Positions 849 through 31,367 of a stretch of DNA of 32,290 bases are shown one piece after another. This stretch comes from a virus. The notes beneath the pieces were generated by a model that ran no database searches, was not told where the DNA came from, and saw only the letters and a program-made list of their open reading frames with translations. The position numbers and the translations under genes were made by a program. The stretch is taken from positions 1-32,290 of IMG/VR virus record IMGVR_UViG_3300020442_002483; one strand, 5' to 3'. Within the stretch, counting starts at the first letter, position 1. Each line of letters starts with the position of its first letter.

Positions 849-870
849 TTAATGAAATAGAGTCTCCTTT

Positions 871-878
871 TATTTATT
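871..878 (-). promoter_or_regulatory. Late promoter box AATAAATA
   Basis: The minus strand reads AATAAATA, a 7/8 match to the T4 late promoter TATAAATA. Its end is 22 nt from the ATG at 848, and the box overlaps the TAA stop of the upstream gene. It would be read by a gp55-type late sigma factor, which is not in this window. Confidence 0.6.
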
Positions 879-1458: not shown

Positions 1459-1467
1459 ATTAACTCC

Positions 1468-1713: not shown

Positions 1714-1715
1714 GG

Positions 1716-2174: not shown

Positions 2175-2195
2175 GTTAACAGAACAAGGCTCTGC

Positions 2196-2203
2196 TATTT
2201 AGA
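2196..2203 (-). promoter_or_regulatory. Possible late promoter box TCTAAATA
   Basis: The minus strand reads TCTAAATA, 21 nt upstream of the ATG at 2174 and overlapping the TAA stop of the preceding gene. It keeps the TAAATA core but departs from NATAAATA at the second position. Position and spacing match the other boxes in this window. Confidence 0.4.
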
Positions 2204-3858: not shown

Positions 3859-4905
3859 TTATACATCCTCATTTTGAGAGGGACTATACTGTTTGAAGTC
3901 TTGGAAGAATGAGGTTGTCTCATTGAATCCAAAGTCGTCCCCAACTTCAATGAGAGCATCGTCCGCAGTATCGATAAGATCGATGGTGCTTCCAGAGACG
4001 TGCTCTGTAGCTGTGGTTCCATCCTCACCACGCAGAACTTTGAGATCATTTCCAGAAATAGATTTGATCTTGATTGTCTCCCTATCAATGTAGATGCGAT
4101 TACCAGCACTCAGACCAGAAGCATCTCCGACCGTAAGTGTTGTCTCTGTTGCATCAACATTCTCGTTGAGGAATGTGATTCCATCATCATTATAATCTTT
4201 TGTTGCACGTGGAGTGACAGAGTACCGCATCTCACGACGGAAGTCCTTACCTTTTCTTGTGCTGTAATCAATTGTGGCCTTCTTAATGATACCAGTTGAG
4301 GAATCGGGAACAGGTCCGAAGAGGTAAGTCTTAGCAGTAAAAGTGAGTGTATAAATTAATGCCCTTCTTTCTGAAAAATCTCCCTCATAGTCGTCTGTAA
4401 AAGAGACATTATCCAAGACGACTGGAACATCTCTCTTCTCACCAATTGAAGATAGAAGATTGATTGTCAGATTATATGATGGTTGAAAATATGGAAGAAT
4501 CTGTTCAACAACTTGCAATGCATCATCATTTAACTTAGTCATGATACTAAGTTCAAATGTCATGTTATAAGGAACCGGCATATAGACCTTCTTTGCTGCG
4601 GTCTTATCGTCGGTTTTTCTTGTGATAAAAGTTTGTGTTTGACTAAGTTTTCTGGAAGGATCGTAACTTAGTCCAGTAAACTCAAACGACATTCTCGGAA
4701 GAGTGATCGTTTGTGATTTTCTTAGATCAGAAGCTTGCTCAATTCTTGCCAGGAATTTTTGTACCGGTCCATAGGCAAGTGGAACCTTGAGCACGCTGAC
4801 AGTGTTGTTGCTACTGTCACTGTGTTTGATTGTAATATCATTGAACAGAGTTCCAAAACCGATAACGGTTTTTCTCAGGATCTCATGATAGAAATATTCA
4901 AACAC
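3859..4905 (-). CDS. 15: Tail sheath stabiliser and completion protein (gp15-like)
   Basis: The N-terminus MFEYFYHEILRKTVIGFGTL followed by FNDI is the gp15 signature (T4 begins MFGYFY). gp15 caps the tail tube and sheath and docks to the gp13/gp14 neck. Residues 1-230 correspond to T4 gp15, including the YMPVPYNMTFELSIMTK and LPYFQPSYNLTINLL strands. The protein has 348 residues against 272 in T4. The extra length includes a small beta module at about 254-312 (ATETTLTVGDASGLSAGNRI, then YIDRETIKIKS, then VLRGEDGTTATEHVSGSTI) that recurs in both giant proteins. The start codon is GTG at 4903-4905, because the in-frame codon two before it is a stop (TGA). The leader has only a weak GGAT element. 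A GTTAAATA box is 22 nt upstream. Confidence 0.93.
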   Translation of the reverse strand: MFEYFYHEILRKTVIGFGTLFNDITIKHSDSSNNTVSVLKVPLAYGPVQKFLARIEQASDLRKSQTITLPRMSFEFTGLSYDPSRKLSQTQTFITRKTDDKTAAKKVYMPVPYNMTFELSIMTKLNDDALQVVEQILPYFQPSYNLTINLLSSIGEKRDVPVVLDNVSFTDDYEGDFSERRALIYTLTFTAKTYLFGPVPDSSTGIIKKATIDYSTRKGKDFRREMRYSVTPRATKDYNDDGITFLNENVDATETTLTVGDASGLSAGNRIYIDRETIKIKSISGNDLKVLRGEDGTTATEHVSGSTIDLIDTADDALIEVGDDFGFNETTSFFQDFKQYSPSQNEDV

Positions 4906-4941: not shown

Positions 4942-6321
4942 TTAAACGTCACCAAATGGGTTTCTCTCTGTGAAATCGAGAATATTGTCTGCCTCTGTTT
5001 CAATGTTATCATTGTCTGCAAAGGGAGTAACAAGATCATCAGTGGTATCTGTCTTGAGTGTGTAGACAGCTCCGGAGTCTTGACCCGTAATCGATTCTCC
5101 GATGATGAATGTTCCTGTCGCAATTCCAACAGTGAGAGTCTTACTGGATGCTGTCCATGTCTTGACTCTTGCCTGAGTTCCAGATGTTCCGCCAGTAACA
5201 ATTTCGTTGTAAGTATAGTTTCCAGAACCAAGTAGTCCAGGAGCACCAATGGTGACAGTGATCGTATCTCCGCCAGTGTATCCAGCACCAGCATTGGAAA
5301 TTCTGACTGCACTAACTGTTCCTGCTGTTGCAACGACAGATCCGGTAGCAGTAACACCAGTTCCTGTAGGACCAGAGAACGTTACAGATGGTGTAGTGTT
5401 ATATCCTGCACCACCACTGGTGACGGTCACGATGCCGATGCTACCCGTAGTTGCAATACCGACCGTGACTGCAACACCAACTCCTCCACCACCAACGAAG
5501 ACAACTTCTGGTGGAGAAAGATACCCTGCACCTGGATTCGTGATAAGAATCTCTTTGATAGATTTAGATGTTGTTATTCCTGTCTTACTTGTGGTGATAG
5601 CCACAGCAGTAGCGTCAATGCCGCCAGATGGAGCGGAAGAAATAGCAACGGTGGGCGTACTTGTGTATCCGCTTCCGTCATTAAGGAGGTTAATGAATTG
5701 AACACCTCCGTTTCTAAATCCGGTGACGGCAGTAGCAGTCGTTCCGATTCCAGCGAGTGTAAGTGTCTGGATATATCCGAGGGTGTCCAGATCATCATCA
5801 ATGTCGCCAACTCCAGTATCAACAACTTCGTCCTCATACCTGAATACCTCACACTGTAATTCGTAGACGTAAAGACTTTGTAACTGATAGTAAGGCTTAG
5901 CGTGCTCAACAAACTTTATTTCATACAATCTGTCATCTAAGGGGAACCAAATCAAGTCACCCTCTTTTGGTCTTGTCGCAAGTTTGATTCCAGTCTCGTT
6001 TCTGATTAATGGTTGAATATAAGTTTCAAATCTTTCCTTTGAAATAACAAGATTGATATCATCTTGTATCTGAACGCCAAACTTTGAAAGAATTTGTCCA
6101 TTTCCTTGATATGCATCAAAGTTTTGAACATATGCTTCTAAAGGGAAAGCATCGTCAAACTTTGATTGAACAACCTCGCGAATGACAGTATTTGTATTCA
6201 GGTATTTCCTTGGGATGTAATAGCACTCAACGCCATACATCTTAATCTGCTCGTTAACGAGAGATTGGATGAGACTTTGCTCGTTTCTTGTACCTTGAGT
6301 AAAGAATGGGTTGAGTGGCAT
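4942..6321 (-). CDS. 14: Neck protein gp14 with inserted GxGY repeats
   Basis: Residues 1-165 are clearly gp14: MPLNPFFTQGTRNEQSLIQS, then MYGVECYYIPRKYL, then KEGDLIWFPLDDRLYEIKFV. gp14 is the head-completion neck protein that with gp13 forms the connector to the tail. T4 gp14 is 256 residues; this one has 459. The excess is a Gly/Thr-rich beta region at about 190-425 with four GxGY units: DGSGYTSTPTV near 215, PGAGYLSPPEV near 263, GGAGYNTTPSV near 303 and AGAGYTGGDTI near 344, spaced about 40-48 residues. A short acidic tail (ETEADNILDFTERNPFGDV) closes the protein, so the repeats look inserted before a C-terminal tail rather than appended after it. The ATG overlaps the gp13 stop as TAATG. 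Confidence 0.93.
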   Translation of the reverse strand: MPLNPFFTQGTRNEQSLIQSLVNEQIKMYGVECYYIPRKYLNTNTVIREVVQSKFDDAFPLEAYVQNFDAYQGNGQILSKFGVQIQDDINLVISKERFETYIQPLIRNETGIKLATRPKEGDLIWFPLDDRLYEIKFVEHAKPYYQLQSLYVYELQCEVFRYEDEVVDTGVGDIDDDLDTLGYIQTLTLAGIGTTATAVTGFRNGGVQFINLLNDGSGYTSTPTVAISSAPSGGIDATAVAITTSKTGITTSKSIKEILITNPGAGYLSPPEVVFVGGGGVGVAVTVGIATTGSIGIVTVTSGGAGYNTTPSVTFSGPTGTGVTATGSVVATAGTVSAVRISNAGAGYTGGDTITVTIGAPGLLGSGNYTYNEIVTGGTSGTQARVKTWTASSKTLTVGIATGTFIIGESITGQDSGAVYTLKTDTTDDLVTPFADNDNIETEADNILDFTERNPFGDV

Positions 6322-15441: not shown

Positions 15442-17007
15442 TTAGAACTCTACAATGATTTTGATATCTTCTTTTTGGTTAGAGGATCTAGTAATAGAAG
15501 CTCTATTGTCAACGTATACAATCTCTCCCGAGTATGGATTGACCTCTGGCGGAGCAACACCTTGAGTAAATGTCATACCAAGATTATACGTCTTACTATT
15601 TATTACGGTGGTGATACCGGTATAATCTAAGTCAATATTCAAATTGACTGATCCACCTTGAATAACGGTTGTTCCACCAGTTCCAGGAGAGGCAGTAAAA
15701 TCAAAAAGTTCAAATCCAAAATCAGGATTTGTTTTTGCTGTTCCAGCTGTTGTGTATCCAGCAACAGAACTATCTTGCCAATACTTCAGAACTCTGGTGT
15801 TTGCATCCCAGGAAATGACTTGACCAACCGCAGTTGATCCGACACCAACTGTTTGGCGAATTCTAGAGTCATTTGTAAAAGTAGCTGCTGTGACACCAGA
15901 TCCCGTAAGTCTGATTGCATAGACAGCACTCGCTTGAGTCTTTGTCAAAATAGAGTCAGATCCATATGATGTGGGATCTTTGACAAGACCAACACGTGCA
16001 AACTGGTTACCAGTTACAAAGTCAGGATCAGACTCATCATTCTCAATTCTAGAATAGATGAGAACACGAGTGGCACCAAGTTCTCTATAAACGTCAGCAC
16101 CATGTCCTCCCTGAGGAGGAATCAGAACGGTAAATGATGCGTCAGTGCTTCCAGAGGTGTTCGTAACGCCAGCTGCTTCTAAGTCAACGGTTCCGTATGT
16201 GTAGTTGTCTCCACCAGACGTTACACTGATTGTTTGAATCTGTCCGGAGGAATTAACATCTACTGAACACTTTGCACCAGTTCCGTTTCCTTTGATAGGA
16301 ACATCTGTGTAAGTAGCAGCATTACCGTAACCTGCTCCTCTGTTGTTAATGATAATCTTTTTCAACTGATTACCAGAGAGAGCAGCATTTCCCCTCACTG
16401 AAGCGATATTCGCATTTGTGGAGGTTGCCCAGTCATCAGGAACGGGAATAAAGTTTGTTGATTCAAACTTTACAAGATCTCCAGGATTGATGGTGTAAAG
16501 ATACTTCCAGAGATATCCGTCACCACTAGTGCCAGCTGCTTTAGGTTCTAAGTCAGTATGAACAGGTTCATCAAGAGATGGTTTGCCAAGAAGATTATCA
16601 GGATCAGTTCCATTTGCGATGCAGATATAAACTCTGAAATCGCTATTCATTACATAAAAGTTTGAACCATAGAGGTTTGACGAACCGGTCTGCGCTGCGG
16701 TGTTGTTCCTACTATAGTCGTGTCTATAATAATCGTAAGAGTTTCCTGATACCCAGGTTAACTTACGAATCACTCTCTTTACATCACCAGCATTGATTTT
16801 TTTCAATGCGATCATGGTATCCCAATACCTATCTTCCTCTAGGAAAGAATCAATCGGATCCGGAGTATTGGTATTCCAGTCCGACTGAACATCCGTTGCG
16901 TTCGGAAGATTAATAAAACTATAATAACTATTCGTGGTCGTCTTGACCCCTGCCGCAAAGTTTGCAGCGTTCAAAATACGCAATTGATCAGTGATAATCG
17001 CAGACAT
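15442..17007 (-). CDS. 8: Baseplate wedge protein gp8
   Basis: The 521-residue product matches the cyanophage form of T4 gp8 (334 residues), the wedge protein that bridges gp7 and gp10. Features are the N-terminal MSAIITDQLRILNAANFAAG, then DVKRVIRKLTWVSGNSYDYY, FYVMNSDFRVYICIANG, TSGDGYLWKYLYTINPGDLV and the C-terminal PYSGEIVYVDNRASITRSSN followed by QKEDIKIIVEF. The extra length includes a GxGY-type insertion at about 215-282 (IIINNRGAGYGNAATYTDV, then ISVTSGGDNYTYGTVDL) and beta-rich material at about 360-460. The ATG at 17007 follows a 21-nt gap with an AAAGGA element and an ACTAAATA box. An AATAAATA sequence inside its 3' part may be a promoter for the next gene. Confidence 0.9.
   Translation of the reverse strand: MSAIITDQLRILNAANFAAGVKTTTNSYYSFINLPNATDVQSDWNTNTPDPIDSFLEEDRYWDTMIALKKINAGDVKRVIRKLTWVSGNSYDYYRHDYSRNNTAAQTGSSNLYGSNFYVMNSDFRVYICIANGTDPDNLLGKPSLDEPVHTDLEPKAAGTSGDGYLWKYLYTINPGDLVKFESTNFIPVPDDWATSTNANIASVRGNAALSGNQLKKIIINNRGAGYGNAATYTDVPIKGNGTGAKCSVDVNSSGQIQTISVTSGGDNYTYGTVDLEAAGVTNTSGSTDASFTVLIPPQGGHGADVYRELGATRVLIYSRIENDESDPDFVTGNQFARVGLVKDPTSYGSDSILTKTQASAVYAIRLTGSGVTAATFTNDSRIRQTVGVGSTAVGQVISWDANTRVLKYWQDSSVAGYTTAGTAKTNPDFGFELFDFTASPGTGGTTVIQGGSVNLNIDLDYTGITTVINSKTYNLGMTFTQGVAPPEVNPYSGEIVYVDNRASITRSSNQKEDIKIIVEF
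15597..15604 (-). promoter_or_regulatory. Possible internal late promoter box AATAAATA
   Basis: The minus strand reads AATAAATA inside the end of gp8, about 159 nt before the ATG of the 2551-residue gene. It matches NATAAATA fully but lies in coding sequence, so it may be chance. It is the only TAAATA core I noticed on the minus strand outside the gaps. Confidence 0.25.
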
Positions 17008-17025: not shown

Positions 17026-17033
17026 TATTTAGT
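17026..17033 (-). promoter_or_regulatory. Possible late promoter box ACTAAATA
   Basis: The minus strand reads ACTAAATA, 18 nt before the gp8 ATG and overlapping the TAA stop of the 4086-codon gene. The TAAATA core is kept; one position differs from NATAAATA. Confidence 0.4.
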
Positions 17034-20000
17034 ACGAACGTTTGACGTTCTTGATTCTCCTAATTACCGGAGCGGTTGACAGACCTGTAATACCGTTTGA
17101 GTTAACGATATTGAAGGCGTGTGGATACGGATCTCTAACAACATTGGTCAATTTTCCGAAACTATATCTTCCAAAGAATTCACTAGTTCCGATCGATACA
17201 CTATCAGTTGAAGAAACACTGACTGTGACTCTTCTCACTGCAGTTGATCCGACTCCCACATTGGGAACAAATCTCTCAATGGTTTCAACTGCAACAGCCT
17301 CGTAGATATTATCTATAAAGGTTGTTCCAATACCAACTGTGCTAATACCTGCTGCATCCTGATAAGATGTGGAACCAGATCCGGTGTTTGTGTCATAAAC
17401 ATAGAAGAAGTCGCCAACACCAATACCAGAAATTGTAACCGCAGTTCCAACTCTATCGGTGTCTCTCATCAGATCATCAACGTAAAGATCAAATACAAGA
17501 CCAGTTAGAGCAACGCCAGCAAGTGAGGTTGCTGCAATACCAGCGATAATTCCAAAGTCTCCAGTTACGGTCGGATTACCGAGAGTGTCGGCAATGCCTG
17601 TAGGTTCACCGATAAGAACGAGGGGAGGAGTGGTATTTGTGTAACCAGTTCCTGCTGTGTTAACGGTAAGTCCACTTACTGTTCCAGCAGCACTAATTGT
17701 TGCAGATGCAGTTGCAATGGCAACAACACCAGAATACGTGCTAATCGAGACCTGAGGGACTGCAGTGTATCCAAGACCAGCACTAGTCAGATCAAGAGAG
17801 ATTGTGCCAGTGTCTGAAACAATCGCAGTTGCAGCTGCAGCGATCTTAGGGGTATCCTCATCGACAAGAATTAAATTGAGATCATCTCCACTAAATCCTT
17901 CCTCATCATCATTGAAGAACGGACGAATACTTTCTACAAACAGAGTTGTAGATCCAATACCAACGCTTTGAATAATTCTGGTGGTTGGTGTAATTGAAGA
18001 CTCATTGATGGTTCTTGCTTTGGAGATGTATTTTCCGTTCACAATAAGGTCATCTTTTTGCTTACACCATGTCATTGGTCTCTCAAGGTTTGTATCAGTT
18101 GTGATACCAGGACCAAAGTATTGAACTGTTCTGATGGTATCAGAAGTAGTAATACCAGTGACTAATCTGAAGTTTTGATCAAGACCAAATGTTTCAGTTC
18201 TTCTAGCATCATCACGCAGTCTTACAGTATCTCCTGGTTTGACCGTTTCAATAACATCAACAAAGATTGAGTCAGCTGCAGATCCACGGAAGTAGAGAAT
18301 CTTCAGTCTATCACCTTCCTTAGGTGCCTCAGTAAAGTCAAGAACACTACCGCCGTTGAACTTGTAAGCATTGCCAGGTTCTTGCAGAATATCATTGATG
18401 AAGATAAGGAGGTTATCTTGAATTCTGATCGGTGAACCAGGTGCTGACCTCAGTGAGAGAGGAACACCATTTTCTTTGATTTGGAACGATTTCTTGACTC
18501 CATTAAAGAATCCACTAAAGTCATCGAGAACTTGAAGTTCACCAAACGTCCAACCAGCAAACTTATCATTATGAATCTGATCAACAGTGATCTTGAATTC
18601 TTCAAAGGTTGCAGTGGGATCTGTAGGAATACCAGTTGCACCACCGACAGGAACTGTCAAATTATCACCGATATCATAGTTGTATCCAGAGTTGGCAAGA
18701 GTAAACTGAATTACACTGCTACCTTGTCCAACAATAACGTCAATGGTTGCATTTTGTCCGCTTGTGGATGATCCACCGGCAGCCACTAAAGGAATGTTGT
18801 CATATCCAGCAGGAGCATCGATGAATACTGAAGGAGGATTAGTGAAAGTATATCCAGTTCCAGGATTGGTAACAGCAATACTTACAATGTGACCACCTGT
18901 AATTGTTGCGGTTCCAATCGGAACAATGTTGGGGAATCCAGTAGCACCAGAGGTTCCAACACCAACACTTACAGTTTGAATACCAGAGCGATATCCAGAA
19001 CCACTATTGCCAATAGAAACTGAGAGAACAGTGCCGAAACCAGAGATAACTGCTGTTCCACCAGCACCGATTAGAGGTTGATAACCAAATCCTTCAGTAG
19101 AACCAACTTGAGCAATGATACCACCTCTAGGAATAGATCCAACATTTACATCATAGAACTGTGATGTAGCAGTTCCCGTAAATGTTACAGAAGAGATGCC
19201 GCTTGCGTGCTCACTGAAGTCATAGTCTGTTTCAGGACCCTGGAAAATTTCGTTGATCAAAATGACACCAGCGTTAGTTGAGAATCCAGTGACATTATTA
19301 CCAGACTCTTTCAATGTAAATGTCTTGGCGATTCCGGTGAAGTCCTTAGACAGAGAATCAAACAATTTATTCTCACTGTAAGCTTCGGTTTGACCTGTTC
19401 CAGTGCTTCTAACAAATGCTCTTCCCTGGAAGGTTGAACGAGTTGTCAGACCAGTGTACCCTTCATTTCCATAAGGTGGTTCGATAAAGTTTAGAGAGTT
19501 TCCAAGAATATTATAATTACCCTCAAACTTAGTGACAACGGCACCGATAGTGTGAATACCAAGCGTGCTGCCCAACCAACCTCTATCAACCAACAATCCA
19601 TCAGTTACTGCATATCCAGTTGCCCTGATTCTCATATACTCTTCATCGATACGAATCAAGTCTCCACCAATGAACTTATCAATTCCATTGATTCTCAAAT
19701 CAGGTTGAGAAGCGTTGATTGTTGTCGTAAGACCAACTGTGATACCAGTAGAGACAATGGGAGACTGGATATTATTATCAAGGGCAATAATACACTTGGT
19801 GTTTGGTTGAAGTGAAGTAATTACATGAGAGTTACCTGTTCCAACCGTTGCAAAGTCATGAGTTCTTGATGGTTCAGCTAAAGCATCAGAAGCAGTCGGA
19901 GCCAACTTGATGAGGTCTTCAGTGAGTTTTACAACATAGGAAGTTGTACCAATGACACCACCAGTTGTTGTGATACCAGTTCCATCATAAGAATAATGAA

Positions 20001-23000
20001 TCTCTTCACCAGTAACCAAGAAGTGATCTGGCAACTTGATCGTATTTGCAGTCAGATCAATGGTGGTTCCATCTTCTGCATCAAAGATCTTACGGAAGAT
20101 AGGTCTGCCTCTGTGCTCAAGATCAAATTGTCTCTTAACAACAGCAAGAGTTCCAGTGTAAGTTCCTTCTCCAGAACGGAACTGACCCATACTCGTGGTT
20201 GTTCCAATACCAACAGTTGAAACACCAGCTCTTGTATTTTCTACTGCCTGACCCAGAACACGAACCTTAACGGCTGTATTTGCATTTGGTGTGTAGTAGA
20301 CATTAAACTGAGATCCAGAATAACCAAAACCAACAGTTCCAAGAGCAACCTGTGTTCCTGCAGCGTCAGACTCAGTTGAAACTAAACCATACTCAAGTCC
20401 ATAAGTTTCAGGCAGAAGACCAGTTCCATCAATCGAATTGACGACAAGACATTCAGTAAGATTCTTGAGGTGTGGATTATTTTGATCCTCTACACTGATT
20501 AAGAAATGACCAGCTTCATATTCTGTGGTTGAAAATCCAGCAACGTTATTTTGACCTGGAGTTCCTGATGCAGAGATAGCAGTGTAGAAGGAAGATTTAA
20601 GTCCATCAATAAAAGTTACTGATCCGATTCCGGTCGAATCTCCCAGAGTCGTTTCAACAACACTAACGTCACAAGACTGTGCAATTCCTGCATTCGGGTA
20701 GAACACAAGATTGGCAAGATTATTGGCAACGGTTACACCGAACGATCCTAATCCAGTACCTGTTGAAAGAACTGAGAACTCAACATATCCCGTATTTGTT
20801 GCAGCTGCACCAGCAGTGATGATGTTGAGTTCAGAGTGCTGGTGAGTAGAAACTCCGTTAGCAGTGTGTGACAACTCAACGGTAACCTTGCTACCCATGG
20901 AGGTGCTGGTGATACCAAGAACAGTTGTTGCTGCTCCAGCTGTTGTTAAAGTGGTTAAACCAGATACAACGGCAAGATCACCGATAGTTGTTGATCCAAC
21001 ACCAATGTCTCCATCCAATTCGGAGAGATTGTTAATGTCAAGTGAGATAAAGTCAAAGACATAGTTGTTTAACTCAAACTTGACCGGATAGAAATCAAGT
21101 TCCCCAAAACCACCATCAAACTTAAACTCAAAGGAACCAAGATATCCTTGAGTGTCCATGCTGTATTGGTTGAGTGCAACCTCAGAACCATCATGAACAA
21201 TATTGATAAATCCTGTCTGAGTCTGAGCGGTAAATCTAGTATCTTTTACGTGATAGAAATATCTATGAGCCCTAAATCCATTGATTCCATTCTGGAAAAA
21301 ATCAACAGTTTCAAAAGGATCAGTTCTTGGTTTACTATTGAAAGTGTCTCCAAAATCATCAATCGCTAATGCTCTATTTGTTCTTGCCTCGATGTAGTCA
21401 GTAAGAACTTTGTTCTCAAAAACAATATCCTTAGAAATTGTGATTCTACTGTCAGTGCTTGCACCAGCAACCTGAACTGTCAGTTCTGTTGTGTTATCAA
21501 AGTCATGAACACAATCAGTATCATACACAGAAATCAAGTCTGTCTTGATGCTTACTTCTTGACTACCGCCTGCGCTGGCTCCACCGCCTCCTCCACCACC
21601 GCCACCGGGGTTGGGGAATCCAGATCCACCATTGCCATATACACCCTCTCCTTGCTCGTCAGCATTAGCGGGGCGACCAGCAAAAGACTCAATCTGCATA
21701 TCAGAGAATTTCTTGAATCCACTGGTATGTGTTAGTTCAGAAACTACATCTTTCCAATCTTCATACTGTTTTGGTGACTTGACTGAATATGCAAATGCTT
21801 GATAATAATCACTATCATGAACTCTCTGCCTAGAATCATTCAGGAATCCAGTGATTCTTTGGAATCCTTTTCTACTTTCAGATAAAGGTTCAACATCAAA
21901 GGAAGAATCAAACGATTCAATAGCAAAAACATTACCAACCTGAGATGATGATTCACCTTCAATATTTTTGCCAGATTCAAATGTATCTCCTGTTTCAACT
22001 CTAGCTGTATTGTTGTTTGGATTCCATCCAACTATCTTACCAACCTTTCTTCCAGTATCAGTATCCTGGAAGATAGTTTCTCCAATTCTGAAGTTTCCTT
22101 TCTCAGTTACTGGATTGAATCCTGGGAAATCTTTTTCTGGAATAATTCTTCCAGCAGAATTGTCTGGATCATAAGTTCCAGGGTTATCATTATCAAGAAC
22201 AAAACTGACCGTGGGATCAGCACCACCCAATTTAGGATCAACTGCAGAAACAACGAACAGATCATAATCATAGAGATTGGAATTATATCCATATCCAGTG
22301 GAAGCAATTCCAACACCTTCTACAAGAACTCTATCACCAACGGCGAATGGGAATGTCTGTCCGGTTGAATAATCGGTGTCAAGGGTAATCTCAACGGTGG
22401 CTGTTGAAGTCGTAAATCCAATTGTTTGAATACCAACTCCATTTGAGTTATTGATTGGAATGATCTGAGGATCAGGATCCTGAAGTCTTTGAGTGTTCTT
22501 AACAATGGTTACTTGGCTAACACCGACTGTTCCGGAAACTCTACCTTTGAGTTCCATTTCATCAAGAATGGTTCCAGTGATTCTATCTCTTACAACAAAG
22601 TCAGGTGATGTGATGTAATTTTTGCCTCCAGAGTTAAGTCCGATGTTCGCGATGGTGCGATATCTATCAACCTTAAAGAGTGTAGGAAGGGCACCGGAGG
22701 GACGGAGAGTTCTATCAAATGGGAACTCATACCCAGGATCATCAATTTGAGTTGATTTTACATCACCAATAGAATTACTCTCAACTCTAAGAATGGCACC
22801 ATTTCCAAAGGAGGTGGATCCTGAACCAACAAACTTTCTTGATACTGTAGTGATACCTGGAATAGAATTATATCCAAATCCTGCATTAGTTACTTTTATG
22901 TTTCCAATCGCACCAAGAGCCCCGGAAGAAGTGGTTGTGTAGTCAAGATCAGAATTTACAGAAGTGTATTTTGCAGATTCTGGTTCAGAAGGAATATTGA

Positions 23001-26000
23001 AACTAAAGGTTGTGGAACCAATTGAAGAGACTTTATATGGACCATTATATTGAGTCGTATGTAAGACGATTGATCCATAATTATCAACGGTCTTATCGAT
23101 GATTACTTCAGACTGCTCTGTAGTGATCTTGTCGGGGTTGATCGGAGTGAGTTTGTAGTAAAGAACATCAGGTGTGTGATCATTCGTTTCAACAAAGATT
23201 TTTCCATTTGCTTTACCAACTTCTCCATTTGCAGAAACATCAAAAGATGCAGTAGCAGAGTTATTAGAAGGGGTTGTAAGGAATCTATCTCTATAGTTCC
23301 TATCTGTGTAGAATTCTACGCTGAAGGATGAGAAAGTTGTTCCACCAGATACAACCGACAAAGAGGTGTCAGCCACATCAAACTCAAGTCTCTGTCCTCT
23401 AGTGAGATTGATAATTGGGTTGACTGGTCTCAGCGAATGCGTCACTGCACCACCAGTTGAAGCAAACGAGACATGGACGGGATACTGAAGAGTGGCATTG
23501 TAATAACTAGATGCCAACTTGATTGTGTCTTTGTTATCCTTAATCACATAATAAATTGACTGGTCTGTGAGTCCAGAGACGACACTGGTTGATTCATAGA
23601 TTACAGGGTCTCCAGTAGTCAGTTTATGATTAGTAATACTAATAGTATTAGAAGTTGAATTAACTCCTGCTTGTACAAACGTGGACAATCCGACAGTCAG
23701 TCTTCTGTTGTACTCATTATAAGTCAGAGAATAAGAGGAGGTAATTCCGGGTTCAATATCAATGAATACGGTATCACCTACTCCAAGTCCATGAGCAGTC
23801 GTTGCCGTGGCTGTGACAACTACTTTTTCAAGAATACCAGTTAGTTCAGTGTTCTGAGTCGTAAATGAATGAGTAACTCCAGCACCAACTTCATGGATGA
23901 AGAGGAATGATGGATGCGTACTAACACCAACAAACGTTCCACCAGCGCCAACACCAATTGGAAGAGTTGATAGACCGATTAAGTTTTTGCTGAGATTGAT
24001 TGAATAAACAGTCGAATCGTTAGCGAGTCTAAAAGTAGTTCCAATACCTGTTCCTGTTCCGTCATTTGAAACCAGAAGAGAGGTTCCAGAACCGTTAGAA
24101 TATGTGAGTGATTGACCAGTAGTAAACTTGTGATCAGGGAGATAGATTGATCTAACAGGAATTGCAAGATCGGTTGTTCCAAGACCAGGAGTGGTTACTG
24201 AAATTGTGCTGATAATTCCAACTCCAGCGGTTGTTCCAAGACCAATATTTCCAGTAGGATCAAAGTAAACAGTCCTGTTCAGAACAATTTCCTTATCAGT
24301 ATTCAAACCAACGTTCAGATCAAGAGCTCTTGGTTTTTCTTCAATAATAGTTGAAGCAGTATAAGAAGTTCCTACAGTACCGTTATATTCTCTAATAACT
24401 CTTACTCTTGAGTTAAACTCATCTACATTCAAAACTAAAAGTTGCTCTGTTGATATACCAAGAACATCATTATCTCTCAGAGTTGCAACATCTCCATTTA
24501 TTGAAATGAAAGTAACAATACCGGTGCTTGCTGTATTTCCAATTGCAGTTGCTGCGCGGAAAGTTGATGTATGAACACCAATATTATAAACACCATCAAT
24601 GTTCAAGATAGATTGAGACGACATTCCAGAAACGCCGACAAAATCACCATCTTTAAAGTTGTGAGGTTCTTCTGTTCTAGCTCTGACAGTTCTGCCGTCA
24701 GTCAAAACTTCAAAAGTTACATTTTCTTTTTTCTCAATGGATGACTCAATTTGAATTAAGTCTTTTCCTTTAATTCTATCAACTTTTGCGGCTGCATTAA
24801 TACCACTAGTTCCAACATTACTAAACTGAATTCTATCTCCAATTTTATAATCATAACCACCAGACTCAACTACAACAGAGTCAATTTTTCCAGGTGATGC
24901 AAAAGATACGGATGCAAACTTGTCAATGGACCTATCTGGTCTCTGAACATACTCATAAGTTCCATCCTTAAAGTTTAACTTGTAAGGATAAGTGTTTCTT
25001 AAATATCCACCTTCATTGAGATTAACATCATCCGTAGTTGATGTTGGTTTAAAGTTATAATCATCTGGTTGTGACTTAAATGAATCACCAATTACATAAG
25101 GAAATACTGGTTTATAGTATTTGTCGAAAGCAGAATCTGGTGTAGTGCTATCTTCAATGGTTGCAAAATATGCATATACCCCATCAGGATAATCAGGTGT
25201 CTTACAGAATCTACCGTTGTGCTCATCAAGATCACCTTTGTTAGTGAAAACATAGTCATTTGTAAACGAACCAAGAGGCCAATCTCCAACACCAGGACCT
25301 TCTGCTCTTGTCGTTCTTATTTCATATCCTGGAATTAGTCTACGAATCGTTCCACCATCATTTCTAGTAAATCCATAAGGTCCATAGATGGGATTACCAT
25401 CATATGCCCACCCAATGATTGGCGAGTGATTTGATGAAATTTTTTCTGCGTTATCATAAACAAGATCATATTCACCATAATCTTTCTCTCCGCTTAATTT
25501 AAGAGATGGGAGAATTTCTCTCAGTTTTCTGGGAGCGTAGAGATGAGTAAACTGTGATCCATATTTTGCGGAAACACTGTTCTCCATGAAACCATCATCA
25601 ATTTTGATGAGGTTTCTATATCTTTCGACGTTATTGATTTCCCATGTTTTTACTTTTCCATCTACAGAAGCTGCTTTACCTGAAGAATTGATTGCAGTTT
25701 CTACAGCTAAGAAAGACTTATCAGTCGCGAAACCAACACCACCACTTACAACATTAACAGAGGTAATTACGCCATTTGTAATTATGGGAGTGAAAGATGC
25801 ATAAGTTCCAACTCCAGAATTTACAATGTCCGGAGGAGAATTGTAACCACTACCACCTCTAATTACAACAACTTGTTCAATTTTACCATCACGAATAATA
25901 GGTCTGAGTTCTGCACCAGAACCAGATAAGAAATCAATAGATGGTTGTCTATCGTAATTTACGATGGTGGAGTTTCCATAACCACTACCGTTGTTAGAGA

Positions 26001-29000
26001 GATCAACAGATGTAATGGATCCTCTAACTACAGGAATAAGAGTTGCGTTATAATCTCCAAGAGAAGATGAAATTCCAAGTTCACCAACAATAGTAACACT
26101 AATTGGTTGATAGTTAAAAGTATGAGTTCCTACACCGATCGATGTTAAACTTGTATATACACCATTTTCATAGTTTGAAGTAATAGTACCACCAACACCA
26201 GCATTAGCTAACCTGAATGAATCATCATCTACTTTTAAAACTTGATATTGAAGAGACTCGCTTAGACCCGCAACAACAGTTCCGGTGGTTGAATAAGTTA
26301 CGATCTCTCCATTCAAATAACCATGATTCTTAATATTAATCGTGTGTGTTGATGTATTAATACCAGTCGGTTCTGTTATTCTCTTTTTGAACTCATAACC
26401 CTCACCAGGTTCCTCAATAAAGATTCTATCGATTACATTCTTTTTAACAACAGATTCAAATTTTTGTATTCCAGATCCTGTTGAAGTTAAACCAACAGTG
26501 TTAATGCCAGAAATAGAATCTTGATATGTCGTATAAAGTCTAATTGATGTCAGACCTACTGGGTTGGCAAAGTAAATTGATCCATCACCAAGAACAGTGT
26601 CGCCAGTTCCAACAGCTACTCCATTGTTTTGGCGATAAAAGACTCTTTCGCCGGCTTTGAATAAGTGATATGTTGTGAAACCAATTGTATTTGTAGAAGT
26701 ATTGATTCCAATCTCTACATCAAGACTAGGGGCATGAGTTGCCTGTCTCATTTTAGCAACTGCTTTTGCTGCTACTTTTGAATTACCTCCAGAAATTTGG
26801 ATTTGGGGTGTATCAATATAATCAAATCCATTATAACTTACATCAATTCTAACCACACTACCAGAAACATTAACATGCCCTGTGGCAGCAATTCCTGCCT
26901 TATCAGAGATAAGAAGTTCTGGGGGATTGATAACATCATATCCGTTGCCACCATCAAGAACTTCAATTGAACTTAATTCGCCATACTTGATACTATCCTT
27001 CGATTTGTAGTTTGAAAGTTCTACTCCGTTGACAAAAATACCAAGTTTATCTCCAGAATTTGTGACATAGTTACTAGTATTTTTTGTATCAAATACTGGA
27101 TTTTTAATTCTTCTTAAAAGTCTCTGAGAATCTACGGCCTTGTTTCTTAATCTACTGGCAAAAATATGAGTCGTGATTCCAGCACTGTTTCCAGAAAGTG
27201 TGATAAATTTACCTTCTGCAATATTTGATCTACTATAGGCAAGTTTAAATTCTTTATCACTAACTACAGATGCATAATAAACACCCTCACTAAGAGGAGA
27301 CAGGGGTGTGGTGGTTACAGCAGTGGATACGTTACCATCATTATAAGTTACAGTTCCTGGAACATAGTAAACTTCATCACCTGTTTTGAAATTATGATCT
27401 GATGTTGATGAAATAGATTCGCCTGCGAAAGTAGCAGCAAACTTAAGTTCAACACCTCTTAAGTCGGCATTGAGGGGATTGTCATAATAATATGGAATAC
27501 TTGGAGATGAGATGTAAGTATAGTTTTCTTCAGATCCTTCAATGAAATCGTGAGGGGCAGACATATGTCTAGCACCCACCATCTTTTTACCATTATGTGT
27601 ATGATAAGGTCCAGAATAAGGAACGCCACTTACAATTCCAACTACATTCAAATTGTAAGTATTAGTGACATTAGTTGAATATCTGTACTCTGGTTGTTTT
27701 ACAGAGGCCTTGATGTCTGCTTTTAAAAGTTCTCTACGAGCCTTATATGTTTCAGTTACAGAGATTCCAGTAAGACCTCTGATAATTGCAATTTTTTCTC
27801 CGGGAACACCAGTAACTGTGCCAGTTACTTCTGTGCTGGTTGTTTGATTGATGAGAGTTACACTATCACCAACATTGAGAAGATGAAGTTCTGGCGTTGT
27901 TATTCTCGTATTATTGTTTCCAATATCCTCTACCTTATCAACGGAGAATCTATTGGTTACGTTATAAATCCACTCTGTGAACCTTTTATCATTATTTTTA
28001 AAAATACCAAGGTTTCTAACATCAATATTGTCACCAGTTACAATTTGCTTAGTTCCATTAGGAATTAGGAAGTTAGAAACAACACCCGTAATTCTGATCA
28101 TGACTTTATCATCGTCATCATCATAACCATAAACACTAGAATCCAGTCTTACGACTGAATTTTTAAGAATGGTAGCAGTGTTGCCAGAAAGTTTTAAAAA
28201 TTGGTTTGAAGTAATTCCATCATATGTTACTTCATAATCAGCTCCATCTGAAGTGATGATAAGTGTTCCTGAAGTTGGGAAACCAACAGTTGAATCAACG
28301 TAAATTGTATTATTGCTGGCAACCTCTTCTGTTACCGTTCTTGTGGACGGTGTAATACTAAACTTACCATAAATCGAACCCTTTACGTTTGAGTCTTTGT
28401 TGTATCCAGCATCGATACTAATTCTATAGTAATCATTTCCATCTCTCGTGAAAATGGTTACATTCTCAATAGAACCATATGCCTCAGGAATAACGCCTTC
28501 GATTCTATCTTGATAAAGAGTCTTGCCCTTAAGGTCCAATGGATCTCCCACCAGAGCGACAGCCACAAGGTCCTCAGTGACGCGATAATCAGCGTCAGAT
28601 GGTTTGATAGTGTTCTCGAAGGGTTTAAGGATTTTTGCCTGTGTTCCATAAAGAGCCCTAAACAGAATCTCAAAAGAGTCATCTGTTCCTTTGGTTTTGT
28701 AGAGATCTTTTGCTTGTTTTGCAAAAAGGGCAACATTCAATCCAGAAACAAAACTTCTATCTTCTAATCCAGGAGTATAAAGGTTTTTGTACTTTTTGAA
28801 AAATTCTGCTAAGAAAAGGTTACTTAAATTAGTAACAGTTTCTCCATCGGCATGATCAGCCGCTAAAGTTTCAGTAAAGACAAGTTTGTCATCTTCTTCG
28901 GAAGAAAACAATGAAGTGATAGCACTGAAAGCACGAACACAACCAAAAAACTGTCTATTGCTTTTACTGGTATAAGATATAATTTCATCTTCAATTTTCA

Positions 29001-29289
29001 GATATCCATATCGATCTGGAAATCCAACTGTAGAATCAACAGAGATTGTTTCATCAAAGGCTGTAATCTTCCCATCAAGCTCAGTGGTGCTGACGAGATA
29101 CTGTTCTCTAAAAGAGTCGTTTTTTAAGTATTGATCAATGTTCTCGGCAATATCAATGGGACCACCTTGATATTCTTGAGATTTATAATACTGCTCTAAA
29201 AATTCCCCGAACAGAGGAGATTCATCTCTAATAAACTCCGGAATCTGATAAGTGACTACGGAGTGAGTTTTTGCTCTTGTCTCGATCAT
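17029..29289 (-). CDS. 7: Giant gp7-type baseplate wedge protein, 4086 residues
   Basis: Its position between gp6 and gp8 and its N-terminus mark it as the cyanophage-type gp7 wedge protein (T4 gp7 has 1032 residues): MIETRAKTHSVVTYQIPEFI, then PLFGEFLEQYYKSQEYQGGP, and at 159-220 FLAEFFKKYKNLYTPGLEDR with KQAKDLYKTKGTDDSFEILF. The body is modular. E-I-x-x-Y modules lie at 81-154 and 325-385; a His-rich motif (GPYHTHNGKKMVGARH) near 558-585; seven H-x-F-x-T-G-D repeats between 620 and 3160; a YHYH-like domain near 1286-1375. A conserved DSRQRVHDSDYYQAF stretch precedes a nine-glycine run near 2555-2565. Three HDG-type beta modules follow (2680-3005), then fibre-like sequence ending EFFGRYSFGKLTNVVRDPYP and VIRRIKNVKRSY. 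GxGY units are scattered throughout. The ATG overlaps the gp6 stop as TAATG. The reading frame is intact over 12.3 kb. The gp7 call is firm for the N-terminus and inferred for the remainder. Confidence 0.85.
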   Translation of the reverse strand: MIETRAKTHSVVTYQIPEFIRDESPLFGEFLEQYYKSQEYQGGPIDIAENIDQYLKNDSFREQYLVSTTELDGKITAFDETISVDSTVGFPDRYGYLKIEDEIISYTSKSNRQFFGCVRAFSAITSLFSSEEDDKLVFTETLAADHADGETVTNLSNLFLAEFFKKYKNLYTPGLEDRSFVSGLNVALFAKQAKDLYKTKGTDDSFEILFRALYGTQAKILKPFENTIKPSDADYRVTEDLVAVALVGDPLDLKGKTLYQDRIEGVIPEAYGSIENVTIFTRDGNDYYRISIDAGYNKDSNVKGSIYGKFSITPSTRTVTEEVASNNTIYVDSTVGFPTSGTLIITSDGADYEVTYDGITSNQFLKLSGNTATILKNSVVRLDSSVYGYDDDDDKVMIRITGVVSNFLIPNGTKQIVTGDNIDVRNLGIFKNNDKRFTEWIYNVTNRFSVDKVEDIGNNNTRITTPELHLLNVGDSVTLINQTTSTEVTGTVTGVPGEKIAIIRGLTGISVTETYKARRELLKADIKASVKQPEYRYSTNVTNTYNLNVVGIVSGVPYSGPYHTHNGKKMVGARHMSAPHDFIEGSEENYTYISSPSIPYYYDNPLNADLRGVELKFAATFAGESISSTSDHNFKTGDEVYYVPGTVTYNDGNVSTAVTTTPLSPLSEGVYYASVVSDKEFKLAYSRSNIAEGKFITLSGNSAGITTHIFASRLRNKAVDSQRLLRRIKNPVFDTKNTSNYVTNSGDKLGIFVNGVELSNYKSKDSIKYGELSSIEVLDGGNGYDVINPPELLISDKAGIAATGHVNVSGSVVRIDVSYNGFDYIDTPQIQISGGNSKVAAKAVAKMRQATHAPSLDVEIGINTSTNTIGFTTYHLFKAGERVFYRQNNGVAVGTGDTVLGDGSIYFANPVGLTSIRLYTTYQDSISGINTVGLTSTGSGIQKFESVVKKNVIDRIFIEEPGEGYEFKKRITEPTGINTSTHTINIKNHGYLNGEIVTYSTTGTVVAGLSESLQYQVLKVDDDSFRLANAGVGGTITSNYENGVYTSLTSIGVGTHTFNYQPISVTIVGELGISSSLGDYNATLIPVVRGSITSVDLSNNGSGYGNSTIVNYDRQPSIDFLSGSGAELRPIIRDGKIEQVVVIRGGSGYNSPPDIVNSGVGTYASFTPIITNGVITSVNVVSGGVGFATDKSFLAVETAINSSGKAASVDGKVKTWEINNVERYRNLIKIDDGFMENSVSAKYGSQFTHLYAPRKLREILPSLKLSGEKDYGEYDLVYDNAEKISSNHSPIIGWAYDGNPIYGPYGFTRNDGGTIRRLIPGYEIRTTRAEGPGVGDWPLGSFTNDYVFTNKGDLDEHNGRFCKTPDYPDGVYAYFATIEDSTTPDSAFDKYYKPVFPYVIGDSFKSQPDDYNFKPTSTTDDVNLNEGGYLRNTYPYKLNFKDGTYEYVQRPDRSIDKFASVSFASPGKIDSVVVESGGYDYKIGDRIQFSNVGTSGINAAAKVDRIKGKDLIQIESSIEKKENVTFEVLTDGRTVRARTEEPHNFKDGDFVGVSGMSSQSILNIDGVYNIGVHTSTFRAATAIGNTASTGIVTFISINGDVATLRDNDVLGISTEQLLVLNVDEFNSRVRVIREYNGTVGTSYTASTIIEEKPRALDLNVGLNTDKEIVLNRTVYFDPTGNIGLGTTAGVGIISTISVTTPGLGTTDLAIPVRSIYLPDHKFTTGQSLTYSNGSGTSLLVSNDGTGTGIGTTFRLANDSTVYSINLSKNLIGLSTLPIGVGAGGTFVGVSTHPSFLFIHEVGAGVTHSFTTQNTELTGILEKVVVTATATTAHGLGVGDTVFIDIEPGITSSYSLTYNEYNRRLTVGLSTFVQAGVNSTSNTISITNHKLTTGDPVIYESTSVVSGLTDQSIYYVIKDNKDTIKLASSYYNATLQYPVHVSFASTGGAVTHSLRPVNPIINLTRGQRLEFDVADTSLSVVSGGTTFSSFSVEFYTDRNYRDRFLTTPSNNSATASFDVSANGEVGKANGKIFVETNDHTPDVLYYKLTPINPDKITTEQSEVIIDKTVDNYGSIVLHTTQYNGPYKVSSIGSTTFSFNIPSEPESAKYTSVNSDLDYTTTSSGALGAIGNIKVTNAGFGYNSIPGITTVSRKFVGSGSTSFGNGAILRVESNSIGDVKSTQIDDPGYEFPFDRTLRPSGALPTLFKVDRYRTIANIGLNSGGKNYITSPDFVVRDRITGTILDEMELKGRVSGTVGVSQVTIVKNTQRLQDPDPQIIPINNSNGVGIQTIGFTTSTATVEITLDTDYSTGQTFPFAVGDRVLVEGVGIASTGYGYNSNLYDYDLFVVSAVDPKLGGADPTVSFVLDNDNPGTYDPDNSAGRIIPEKDFPGFNPVTEKGNFRIGETIFQDTDTGRKVGKIVGWNPNNNTARVETGDTFESGKNIEGESSSQVGNVFAIESFDSSFDVEPLSESRKGFQRITGFLNDSRQRVHDSDYYQAFAYSVKSPKQYEDWKDVVSELTHTSGFKKFSDMQIESFAGRPANADEQGEGVYGNGGSGFPNPGGGGGGGGGASAGGSQEVSIKTDLISVYDTDCVHDFDNTTELTVQVAGASTDSRITISKDIVFENKVLTDYIEARTNRALAIDDFGDTFNSKPRTDPFETVDFFQNGINGFRAHRYFYHVKDTRFTAQTQTGFINIVHDGSEVALNQYSMDTQGYLGSFEFKFDGGFGELDFYPVKFELNNYVFDFISLDINNLSELDGDIGVGSTTIGDLAVVSGLTTLTTAGAATTVLGITSTSMGSKVTVELSHTANGVSTHQHSELNIITAGAAATNTGYVEFSVLSTGTGLGSFGVTVANNLANLVFYPNAGIAQSCDVSVVETTLGDSTGIGSVTFIDGLKSSFYTAISASGTPGQNNVAGFSTTEYEAGHFLISVEDQNNPHLKNLTECLVVNSIDGTGLLPETYGLEYGLVSTESDAAGTQVALGTVGFGYSGSQFNVYYTPNANTAVKVRVLGQAVENTRAGVSTVGIGTTTSMGQFRSGEGTYTGTLAVVKRQFDLEHRGRPIFRKIFDAEDGTTIDLTANTIKLPDHFLVTGEEIHYSYDGTGITTTGGVIGTTSYVVKLTEDLIKLAPTASDALAEPSRTHDFATVGTGNSHVITSLQPNTKCIIALDNNIQSPIVSTGITVGLTTTINASQPDLRINGIDKFIGGDLIRIDEEYMRIRATGYAVTDGLLVDRGWLGSTLGIHTIGAVVTKFEGNYNILGNSLNFIEPPYGNEGYTGLTTRSTFQGRAFVRSTGTGQTEAYSENKLFDSLSKDFTGIAKTFTLKESGNNVTGFSTNAGVILINEIFQGPETDYDFSEHASGISSVTFTGTATSQFYDVNVGSIPRGGIIAQVGSTEGFGYQPLIGAGGTAVISGFGTVLSVSIGNSGSGYRSGIQTVSVGVGTSGATGFPNIVPIGTATITGGHIVSIAVTNPGTGYTFTNPPSVFIDAPAGYDNIPLVAAGGSSTSGQNATIDVIVGQGSSVIQFTLANSGYNYDIGDNLTVPVGGATGIPTDPTATFEEFKITVDQIHNDKFAGWTFGELQVLDDFSGFFNGVKKSFQIKENGVPLSLRSAPGSPIRIQDNLLIFINDILQEPGNAYKFNGGSVLDFTEAPKEGDRLKILYFRGSAADSIFVDVIETVKPGDTVRLRDDARRTETFGLDQNFRLVTGITTSDTIRTVQYFGPGITTDTNLERPMTWCKQKDDLIVNGKYISKARTINESSITPTTRIIQSVGIGSTTLFVESIRPFFNDDEEGFSGDDLNLILVDEDTPKIAAAATAIVSDTGTISLDLTSAGLGYTAVPQVSISTYSGVVAIATASATISAAGTVSGLTVNTAGTGYTNTTPPLVLIGEPTGIADTLGNPTVTGDFGIIAGIAATSLAGVALTGLVFDLYVDDLMRDTDRVGTAVTISGIGVGDFFYVYDTNTGSGSTSYQDAAGISTVGIGTTFIDNIYEAVAVETIERFVPNVGVGSTAVRRVTVSVSSTDSVSIGTSEFFGRYSFGKLTNVVRDPYPHAFNIVNSNGITGLSTAPVIRRIKNVKRSY
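20270..21250 (-). repeat. Three tandem HDG-type beta modules in the 4086-codon gene
   Basis: Three consecutive segments of about 75-100 residues share a pattern: strand, then an IN(I/V)xHDG-like motif, then L-G-(S/T)-F/V, then a Gly-containing turn, then xxYPxx/YTPNA and a final strand. Motifs are FINIVHDGSEV near residue 2693, ELNIITAGAAA near 2819 and CLVVNSIDGTG near 2948. The same pattern forms the C-terminus of the 416-residue fibre-like protein (INVIHDGTSAY near its residue 357). Confidence 0.65.
25160..25440 (-). other. YHYH-like domain inside the gp7-type protein
   Basis: Residues about 1286-1375 of the giant protein read HSPIIGWAYDGNPIYGPYGF, then after a gap LDEHNGRFCKTPDYPDGVYA and YFATI. 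The GxAxDGxPIYGPYG and LDExNGR segments are characteristic of the YHYH domain family. The position where the family has its Tyr-His-Tyr-His motif reads YAYF here. The family name is from knowledge of the motif, not a search. Confidence 0.65.
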
Positions 29290-31367
29290 TAGTATGAATA
29301 TCCGCCTGAGGTTGAATTAGATGAAACTTGTGCTGATGAGAATGATGTTGAGGTTGTATACGTTGTTGCGTATGAAGTGTCAACTTCCACTACATTTTCA
29401 GATTCAGTCTGAGTTACAGATGAATATGAAGGCGTTCCCCTTACCAATGGCGAAGAACGATCTGATCGTCCGTTGGGGAAGCTAGAACTCACAATGTAAC
29501 TGGATCCAGATACATCTTCACCCGATGAAATCGTGTCTGATACCATCGTAACTAAACTGTTATTAATATCTAGTTGCAAATAAAGATCCTGTAATCCGAT
29601 AACGTCATATGACTTAGGAGTACAACTTACCTGGATAACCTCTTGGTCTCCAGAAACGGAAGTGGATGTAATTGTGATGGGAGAGATATTAATTTCACCT
29701 TTTTTGTAATCAATCTCACCAATATTGTTTCTAACAACTGCAACTTGATTTGATGCAATCAACTTGAACAAAATCAGTCTTCCTTTCGATCTGTCTGCAT
29801 CCGGAATATCAGACATGTAGACTGTTCCAGCAATTCCGTTGACAGTGAAACCAGAACTCTTGATATTATATCCATTTAAGGAATTTACGTTGATGGCATT
29901 ACCAAAACAAAGTTCATAAGTTGCCAATTCATTAATGGCAGGTCTCATGTCCCTTCTCATTGCCACTCTGGTAATGTTAGAAGTCACTGATGCACTGGCT
30001 TGGTCAACTAAACGCAATGACTTACTATATTTGAACCTAGCACCAAAAGTGTTGAGTTCGTTTGATCTAGAATATGTTGAAAGTGTTGAAGTAATAGAAG
30101 TCTTCAGTCCATCTACAGAATTTGTTGAATTTGAGTTGTAATAAGCACTAACATCAAGTTCTACAAACAGATATTTGAGATCAATGATGTTTGGAAGAAT
30201 TCCAGCTACGGTATATCTCTTTAATTTGTTTACGAGTTCAATTTTTTGAATCTGAGACAAATAATTGCCTCTCTTCGGTTTGATGCTAATAAAGACTCTT
30301 CCAAATTGAGGTGGATCTAAGTCTTCACCACCATAAACAGAAACTGACTCTGTATTTGAGTAAATATTGCTTACAATCGCTTTATAGTCCTCTGCGGTGA
30401 CCGCACGGTTCTGAGCAGAGTACGTTAGAGGTGCATATTTACGAATTGACGATACAGATTCAATATCATCGCCATTTTCAGCCTTTGCGTTGACGGCAAG
30501 TTCTGAAATACCGTCTGTAATCGTTACACCAGCATTTGTTTGAATAGTTCCAGTGAATGTAAAGGAGTTTGTGCCGTTTGCATCCTTTCCATTTGTCGTG
30601 ATGTAGTTTACAGTGACAAAATTACCGTCTTCGAGTTTTTTGCCAAACTTTCCATCACCAAAAATAACTTCATACTTCTCATCAGCAACTTCTTGAAGTA
30701 AAAAGATGAGAGACGTGTTAGTTACGTTAATAATGTTGTCAGTTAACTTATAAACAGTCTTCAAATTGGTTGAAGACGAGTTTGGTGATACTGATACTTT
30801 AATGGTTGACGTATCAATGCCATCGTTCGGCAAAATAAACCGTTCTGTAGGAACTGTTCCTCCAGTTTCTCTATATGTGAATGTATTAGTGAGATATGAA
30901 CCTTCGTAAATGTCAATTCCATCAAATTCTGCAATATCATCAACCACCGGAACGGTGATATCATTCATAATTGCAAAACTATAATTGTCTCCACCAAAAG
31001 CATCGGAAACTGCAACAATACCTGCTTTTAAAGTCAGTGTAAGAGGCGTTACGTTGAATGTAGAGGTGTCAACGAAGAAACTTACGGTTGCTTTTGCTGA
31101 TTTTTTGGATCTAGGGATATAACCAACGTTTCTTGCAAGTGCGGCTACGTTTTCTCTTAAAGTCGCACTATCAATGAATACTTCATTAGCAACCATGTTG
31201 CTATTGTAAGCAGTAATATAAGAATTATATGCTAAAGTGTCGATAAGGATCGACATGTTTGACCCTTCAAAGTCAAAATCAGTGAAATTGCTATTCGCCC
31301 TCAAATAATCCTTTATCTGAGTCTTGATTTGTTCAAAATCTAAGTTTTGGAATTGAGTGAGTGGCAT
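29289..31367 (-). CDS. 6: Baseplate wedge protein gp6
   Basis: The 692-residue product matches T4 gp6 (660 residues), a baseplate-J-like protein that dimerises into the iris-like inner ring of the baseplate and forms the wedge core with gp25, gp53 and gp7. Diagnostic features are the N-terminal MPLTQFQNLDFEQIKTQIKD, then FEGSNMSILIDTLAYNSYIT, then ANEVFIDSATLRENVAALAR and NVGYIPRSKKSAKATV, and the mid region YSAQNRAVTAEDYKAIVSNI with VYGGEDLDPPQFGRVFISIK. The C-terminal 70 residues are Ser/Thr/Tyr-rich low complexity ending SSNSTSGGYSY, which looks like a flexible tail. The ATG directly follows the gp25 TAA (TAAATG), and the gp6 stop overlaps the next ATG, so gp25, gp6 and the gp7-type gene form one tightly coupled unit. 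Confidence 0.95.
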   Translation of the reverse strand: MPLTQFQNLDFEQIKTQIKDYLRANSNFTDFDFEGSNMSILIDTLAYNSYITAYNSNMVANEVFIDSATLRENVAALARNVGYIPRSKKSAKATVSFFVDTSTFNVTPLTLTLKAGIVAVSDAFGGDNYSFAIMNDITVPVVDDIAEFDGIDIYEGSYLTNTFTYRETGGTVPTERFILPNDGIDTSTIKVSVSPNSSSTNLKTVYKLTDNIINVTNTSLIFLLQEVADEKYEVIFGDGKFGKKLEDGNFVTVNYITTNGKDANGTNSFTFTGTIQTNAGVTITDGISELAVNAKAENGDDIESVSSIRKYAPLTYSAQNRAVTAEDYKAIVSNIYSNTESVSVYGGEDLDPPQFGRVFISIKPKRGNYLSQIQKIELVNKLKRYTVAGILPNIIDLKYLFVELDVSAYYNSNSTNSVDGLKTSITSTLSTYSRSNELNTFGARFKYSKSLRLVDQASASVTSNITRVAMRRDMRPAINELATYELCFGNAINVNSLNGYNIKSSGFTVNGIAGTVYMSDIPDADRSKGRLILFKLIASNQVAVVRNNIGEIDYKKGEINISPITITSTSVSGDQEVIQVSCTPKSYDVIGLQDLYLQLDINNSLVTMVSDTISSGEDVSGSSYIVSSSFPNGRSDRSSPLVRGTPSYSSVTQTESENVVEVDTSYATTYTTSTSFSSAQVSSNSTSGGYSY

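Follow-up and report, generated by a model that had tools for sequence, protein, structure and literature searches.

The locus raises the question of how a baseplate protein of the gp7 type comes to be several times as long as its T4 counterpart, and of what a run of glycines inside it records. The gene lies at positions 17029-29289 of the window, by which we mean the whole stretch of DNA analysed; it is a 32 kb metagenome fragment and makes up one IMG/VR record in full (32,290 bases). According to the original prediction, two ancestral genes, one for a wedge protein and one for a fibre protein, had fused at this place and the glycines were the linker left by their union.

The gene and its neighbourhood

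The predicted unbroken frame from 17029 to 29289 exists, but on the minus strand: it is free of stops for 4,086 aa from its ATG, and at 3.96 times the length of T4 gp7 (1,032 aa) the protein has about the fourfold size claimed for it. The PHROG 2885 profile 'baseplate wedge subunit' (4,179 positions) matches it with 3,173 bits in three stretches (the best being 588-3447), while Pfam PF23786 scores 26.5 bits, slightly below its cut-off of 27; these matches, and the collinearity of the gp7 family with T4 gp7, agree with the gp7-like N-terminus that had been proposed. The gene sits between those for gp6 (29289-31367; PHROG 219, 659 bits; used for a tree below) and gp8 (15442-17007; PHROG 438, 531 bits), as in T4-like cyanophages; all features of these three genes are on the minus strand. 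The complete order on that strand is gp25, gp6, giant gp7, gp8, and then a 2,551-aa VrlC/DUF4815 gene, and the order gp25-gp6-gp7-gp8-VrlC is common to the window and to phages Bellamy, S-SM2, P-SSM2 and S-CAM9. The window protein is an ordinary giant gp7 baseplate protein, encoded by an ocean virus of cyanobacteria (T4-like, Kyanoviridae-type), and a fresh member of the already known PHROG 2885 family.

Continuous genes of this kind occupy the same place in Bellamy (4,067 aa), S-SM2 (4,156 aa), S-CAM9 (3,884 aa), DSL-LC03 (4,107 aa), S-SRM01 (3,895 aa) and P-SSM2 (5,195 aa), and the Bellamy protein aligns with that of the window from end to end at 39%. The greatest length variation among 45 full-length giants is found at the equivalent of residue 3482, where 0-904 aa are inserted; P-SSM2 has about 1,040 additional residues close to this point. 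The largest proteins encountered were the gp7 frames of the syn9-type loci L112-L158, from 6,158 to more than 6,900 aa.

The gp7 core and its border

A hidden Markov model (HMM) made from short gp7s matches residues 1-67 and 160-354 of the window protein. The first part of the gp7 core comprises residues 1-260 (28510-29289), where the profile is collinear with T4 gp7 652-760; the second part, the 'hinge module' (residues 2391-2537; 21679-22119), carries YYQ..W..HTSGF. The two are split by beta modules of about 2,000-2,200 aa (residues 261-2290; 22420-28509), including a YHYH domain at residues 1285-1382 (25144-25437; PF14240, 91.5 bits, cut-off 25). Gp7s of 500-870 aa are without this insert and reach the core motif directly. 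The full motif, D(S/N)..YYQ..SY...W...H(P/T).G(F), occurs in every giant and in 23 of the 24 short-gp7 loci; in the window protein SRQRVHDSDYYQAF begins at residue 2486 and HTSGFKKFSDMQIES at residue 2521. A gp7-type conserved stretch had been noted ahead of the glycines, and it proves to be a general landmark of the gp7 C-terminus. Short marine gp7s (853-884 aa) have the motif about 210 aa before their end, and the 527-aa gp7 of locus L186 and the 528-aa gp7 of Rhizobium phage RHph_I1_18 terminate about 33 aa past it (HPxG). Judged from these sequences, the border after the hinge motif is real and coincides with the natural gp7 C-terminus.

The relation to T4 gp7 was reached through the short gp7s. 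Searched against the whole PDB with E up to 10, their profile had a single match, weak by sequence, to the T4-type gp7 9f4a (E 0.017), in three collinear pieces: profile 14-39 on 652-677, 202-228 on 734-760 and 628-667 on 862-903, the last of these, from the HPxGF region, being weak by itself at 4.9 bits. By hhalign, residues 1-311 of the short gp7 pair with T4 gp7 636-825 (E 5.7e-8), so that the N-terminal core of the window protein, via the HMM match at 160-354, corresponds approximately to T4 gp7 640-825. A direct search of T4 gp7 with the short-gp7 HMM in a small set did no better than a chance match to gp18, and we therefore relied on the whole-PDB profile match and on hhalign. From the ends of the short gp7s and the collinearity with T4 it follows that the core would be compact in T4 and in short gp7s, and opened and extended in the giant.

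Relatives with divided genes

A comparison with the gp7 region of other phages had been suggested as a check on whether the two halves ever occur as genes of their own; in some relatives they do, and split forms are found at two linkers. Linker 1 (residues 2536-2575; 21565-21684) is the split site of the DSL-LC02 clade. In DSL-LC02, whose genome was verified through mate-pair mapping and PCR (PMC10611076), gp7 consists of 2,514 and 1,432 aa and the stop falls exactly at the linker 1 border. The splits at this linker in L006, L103, L104, L105 and L106 all have TAA-NAA-ATG without a change of frame. Contigs L103-L106 (62-99% identity) show the junction of DSL-LC02, together with which they belong to a freshwater clade. 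L102 is split as in DSL-LC02 but in a tailed variant; it is counted in the DSL-LC02 clade together with L101, the sequence of which stops before a C gene could show.

Linker 2 (residues 3018/3019-3050; 20140-20235; AlphaFold2 (AF2) pLDDT 27-35) is the split site in at least three other lineages, and its junctions take several forms: TAG TAA, then AAGGAG, then ATG in L064, L199 and L200; an ATGA overlap in L243 and L248; and a TAATG overlap in L190, L250 and L251. Phage Sf-FS3 (L019, 8362-16874) has a gp10-like gene (PHROG 677) between an N gene of 2,995 aa and a C gene of 2,492 aa, and a PHROG 708-type N-terminus also lies inside its divided giant gp7 region.

Two apparent divisions were set aside. 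The gp7 of S-SKS1 (L013, 6565-18957) is given in RefSeq as four overlapping frames with large stretches unannotated; we rejected it as a four-gene form, as the breaks coincide with A/T-rich runs, where the frame changes, lack ribosome sites and are probably sequence errors. The break of L072, 87 aa past the motif, was treated as a frameshift, for the frames overlap and protein similarity continues across it.

No paper on the pattern of gp7 splits and fusions was found in the library searched. Sullivan et al. 2010 (PMC3037559) only remark that gp7 and gp10 are very divergent.

Direction of change

A gp6 tree with T4 as root unites the giants in one clade (99), in which the syn9-type phages are basal; nested among the giants is the DSL-LC02 clade (100), within a clade (96) made up mostly of fused forms. 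Trees of the N part (residues 1960-2536) and the C part (residues 3042-3440) are broadly congruent, and in both the linker 2 splits require at least three changes, on the starred branches. Fused L201 and L202 are sisters of split L199 and L200 (98), and fused L244 of split L243 (97, N tree). A single origin of the linker 2 splits was rejected (lnL difference 200, p 3e-32), the p value being indicative since the group was named after viewing the sequences. These are quick trees with some long branches, and fine placement near L008, L016 and L019 is unsure.

Because split forms are nested within fused ones, the two-gene forms are read as fissions, and repeated fission of an already continuous giant is the best-supported history within the giants, as far as these trees can tell. 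The predicted fusion of two ancestral genes was therefore correct as to a true border and as to halves that are separate in relatives, but inside the giant clade its direction is reversed, and an unfused ancestral state finds no support there.

The C-terminal part and the gp10 question

Past linker 1, a module at residues 2640-3018 (20236-21372) is lacking in S-CAM9, in DSL-LC03 and in the C gene of DSL-LC02. In the AF2 model, residues 3001-3050 have a pLDDT of 27-35 and are followed by an all-beta chain at about 80 (residues 3051-4086; 17032-20139), which ends in a conserved domain (3880-4086, 'GRYSWGK...GL.T.P'). The C part has recurring 'INGVLQ.P..Y' and 'GSGY' modules. It had been called fibre-like; it is indeed all-beta, but neither a fibre family above cut-off in Pfam nor, for residues 3001-4086 in Foldseek, a PDB fold at E<0.001 was matched. 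The same residues have local similarities of about 100 residues to the tailspikes 9k4a and 4y9v (E 0.2-0.8), and a full-length phmmer search of the PDB for a solved homologue gave only low-complexity glycine matches. In T4 and XM1, gp7 is present in one copy per wedge, accompanied in the T4-type wedge by two gp6; by this analogy we disfavour a homotrimeric fibre for the C arm when it is fused.

The 'GSGY' beta module (C-terminal part of PHROG 460) is found in the window gp7 and weakly in gp8 (15442-17007), and is visible by reading in a gp14-like protein (4942-6321); it looks like one module spread across neck and baseplate proteins. A 416-aa protein at window positions 2199-3449 reads as having a coiled-coil-like N-terminus and a tail-fibre-like C-terminus, 'VTNIDSVGIVTARSGVQIG'.

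The C part might still descend from a neighbour, by one original fusion of the gp7 core with a downstream gene of the fibre/gp10 region at the base of the giants, the glycines being unrelated and later. Short-gp7 phages and syn9 have gp10-like genes between gp7 and gp8; the continuous giants examined carry no gene there, and the gp10-like N-terminal domain was not found in them. With this domain defined by PHROG 677 from position 1 and PHROG 958 positions 2-46, it adjoins gp7 in syn9, S-MbCM6 and Sf-FS3 and in none of nine other genomes tested, where later parts of the profiles or nothing matched. The basal syn9-type phages, however, carry a 6,000-aa gp7 as well as gp10-like and fibre genes, so that the giant did not come about through absorption of gp10, and only the widespread 'INGVLQ.P' module is held in common. 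We consider such a basal fusion unlikely.

The glycine run

Nine consecutive glycines do occur in the region indicated (residues 2540-2580), at residues 2562-2570, read from 21606 to 21580. They belong to an insert, GRPANADEQGEGVYGNGGSGFPNPGGGGGGGGGASAGGSQEV, of 35-40 residues that in the border alignment is limited to the clade of the window. Seven relatives of about 70% identity (L022-L028) have the insert, reading '...GFPNAGIGAAAANAASGQEV' or similar, free of the run; in every fused protein beyond these the linker is short, differs in sequence and lacks the insert. Besides the window, the run itself was found solely in the near-identical contigs L009, L010/L021 (the same contig) and L011, while fused full-length forms lacking it include nearly all of 80 IMG/VR loci and six isolates (Bellamy, S-SM2, P-SSM2, S-CAM9, DSL-LC03 and S-SRM01). 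Since the run is confined to the closest relatives and fused forms are family-wide, the fused state must be far older than the glycines, which hence cannot be a remnant of joining. On the evidence of the alignments, the run is a recent, lineage-specific lengthening of an older linker between the core and a C-terminal arm.

Nor is linker 1 a unique hinge: its first part varies from 1 to 25 aa among 45 full-length giants, and by length range it ranks only about 15th of 90 variable segments. AF2 confidence is below 50 in linker 1, but the border model (input alignments without phage-record rows) scores poorly even within the conserved motif (pLDDT 35-45), so low confidence does not demonstrate flexibility of the linker; Foldseek found no match of this model in the PDB. 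At the same border the split N gene of L101 (10001-11041) and L102 (9980-10459) ends in a Gly/Asp-rich low-complexity tail, absent from L106 though the sequences are nearly identical nearby. This separate tract indicates that the place tolerates low-complexity growth.

The account in which a wedge and a fibre gene fused and left the glycine stretch can thus draw on the match of the border to the natural gp7 C-terminus and on the separate halves of the DSL-LC02 clade. Against it, the glycines occur at the tips of the tree only and most joined forms are without that linker; being fused is the rule, with splits nested; in short-gp7 phage loci, HMMs of the C part picked out no clear homologue standing as a gene of its own; and the phage-record matches of the C part are almost all cyanophages. 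It is very improbable. An assembly chimera or frame artefact, conceivable in a 32 kb metagenome fragment, can be dismissed: the nine glycine codons are mixed (GGT/GGC/GGA), contrary to a homopolymer read error, the gene is equally continuous in several cultured phages, and no assembly join exists near 21,600, since L009, L010/L021 and L011, independent IMG/VR contigs out of two metagenome datasets, cross the place at 94-99% identity and have 9 or 10 glycines there.

A giant gp7 with two outgrowths

Our preferred explanation, which we regard as very probable, is a giant cyanophage gp7 composed of two short core parts and two long outgrowths, with a lineage-specific lengthening of the linker by glycines. 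The core parts (residues 1-260 and about 2391-2537) would, as in T4, join gp6 in forming the wedge; this joining of the gp7 core to gp6 is known from T4 and XM1 (PMC10457771). The first outgrowth would be the insert of 2,000-2,200 residues between the core parts, the second an extension of 1,550 residues past the natural C-terminus of the core, and both may form peripheral baseplate arms built of beta domains.

The C arm probably behaves as a separate subunit for which the covalent link is dispensable; it may take over part of the baseplate periphery and supply the peripheral function that gp10-like proteins supply in relatives. That the linkers are recurrent break points, at which an autonomous C arm was repeatedly released from gp7, at the same linker, to replace a gp10-type periphery, is a doubtful extension; if true, release would perhaps alter copy number or permit oligomerisation.

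Cyanophage gp7s are among the largest phage structural proteins and are little studied. Mapping the T4 core inside the giant shows annotators and structural biologists which parts are wedge and which periphery. Fission that recurred independently at two fixed linkers offers evidence from nature that the C arm can exist as a chain of its own, a matter on which the glycine run itself is silent, and recurrent fission in the giant gp7 family is the part that merits follow-up.

Comparison with known systems

T4 gp7 shares with the window protein the first core part (T4 652-760), the neighbours gp6 and gp8 and possibly, on a weak collinear match, the second core part (T4 862-903); in contrast, the window gp7 showed nothing corresponding to T4 residues 1-635, about 2,000-2,200 aa are inserted and about 1,550 aa are appended. 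In XM1, spikes attach to the gp7 orthologue gp17 (242 aa) at two points, an internal loop and the C-terminus (PMC10457771). This is likewise a core with outgrowths at the same two points, the resemblance being one of analogy; the outgrowths of XM1 gp17 are tiny, however, and its spikes are a separate protein. The DSL-LC02 pair has both halves homologous and adjacent, but as two genes with a stop and start at linker 1 and a C gene that lacks module 2640-3018. Closest in build are Bellamy gp111 and S-SM2 gp7 (PHROG 2885, Kyanoviridae), which resemble the window protein in length (4,067-4,156 aa), gene order and sequence (similarity 37-39%) and differ at linker 1, short in them and 35-40 residues long and Gly-rich in the window.
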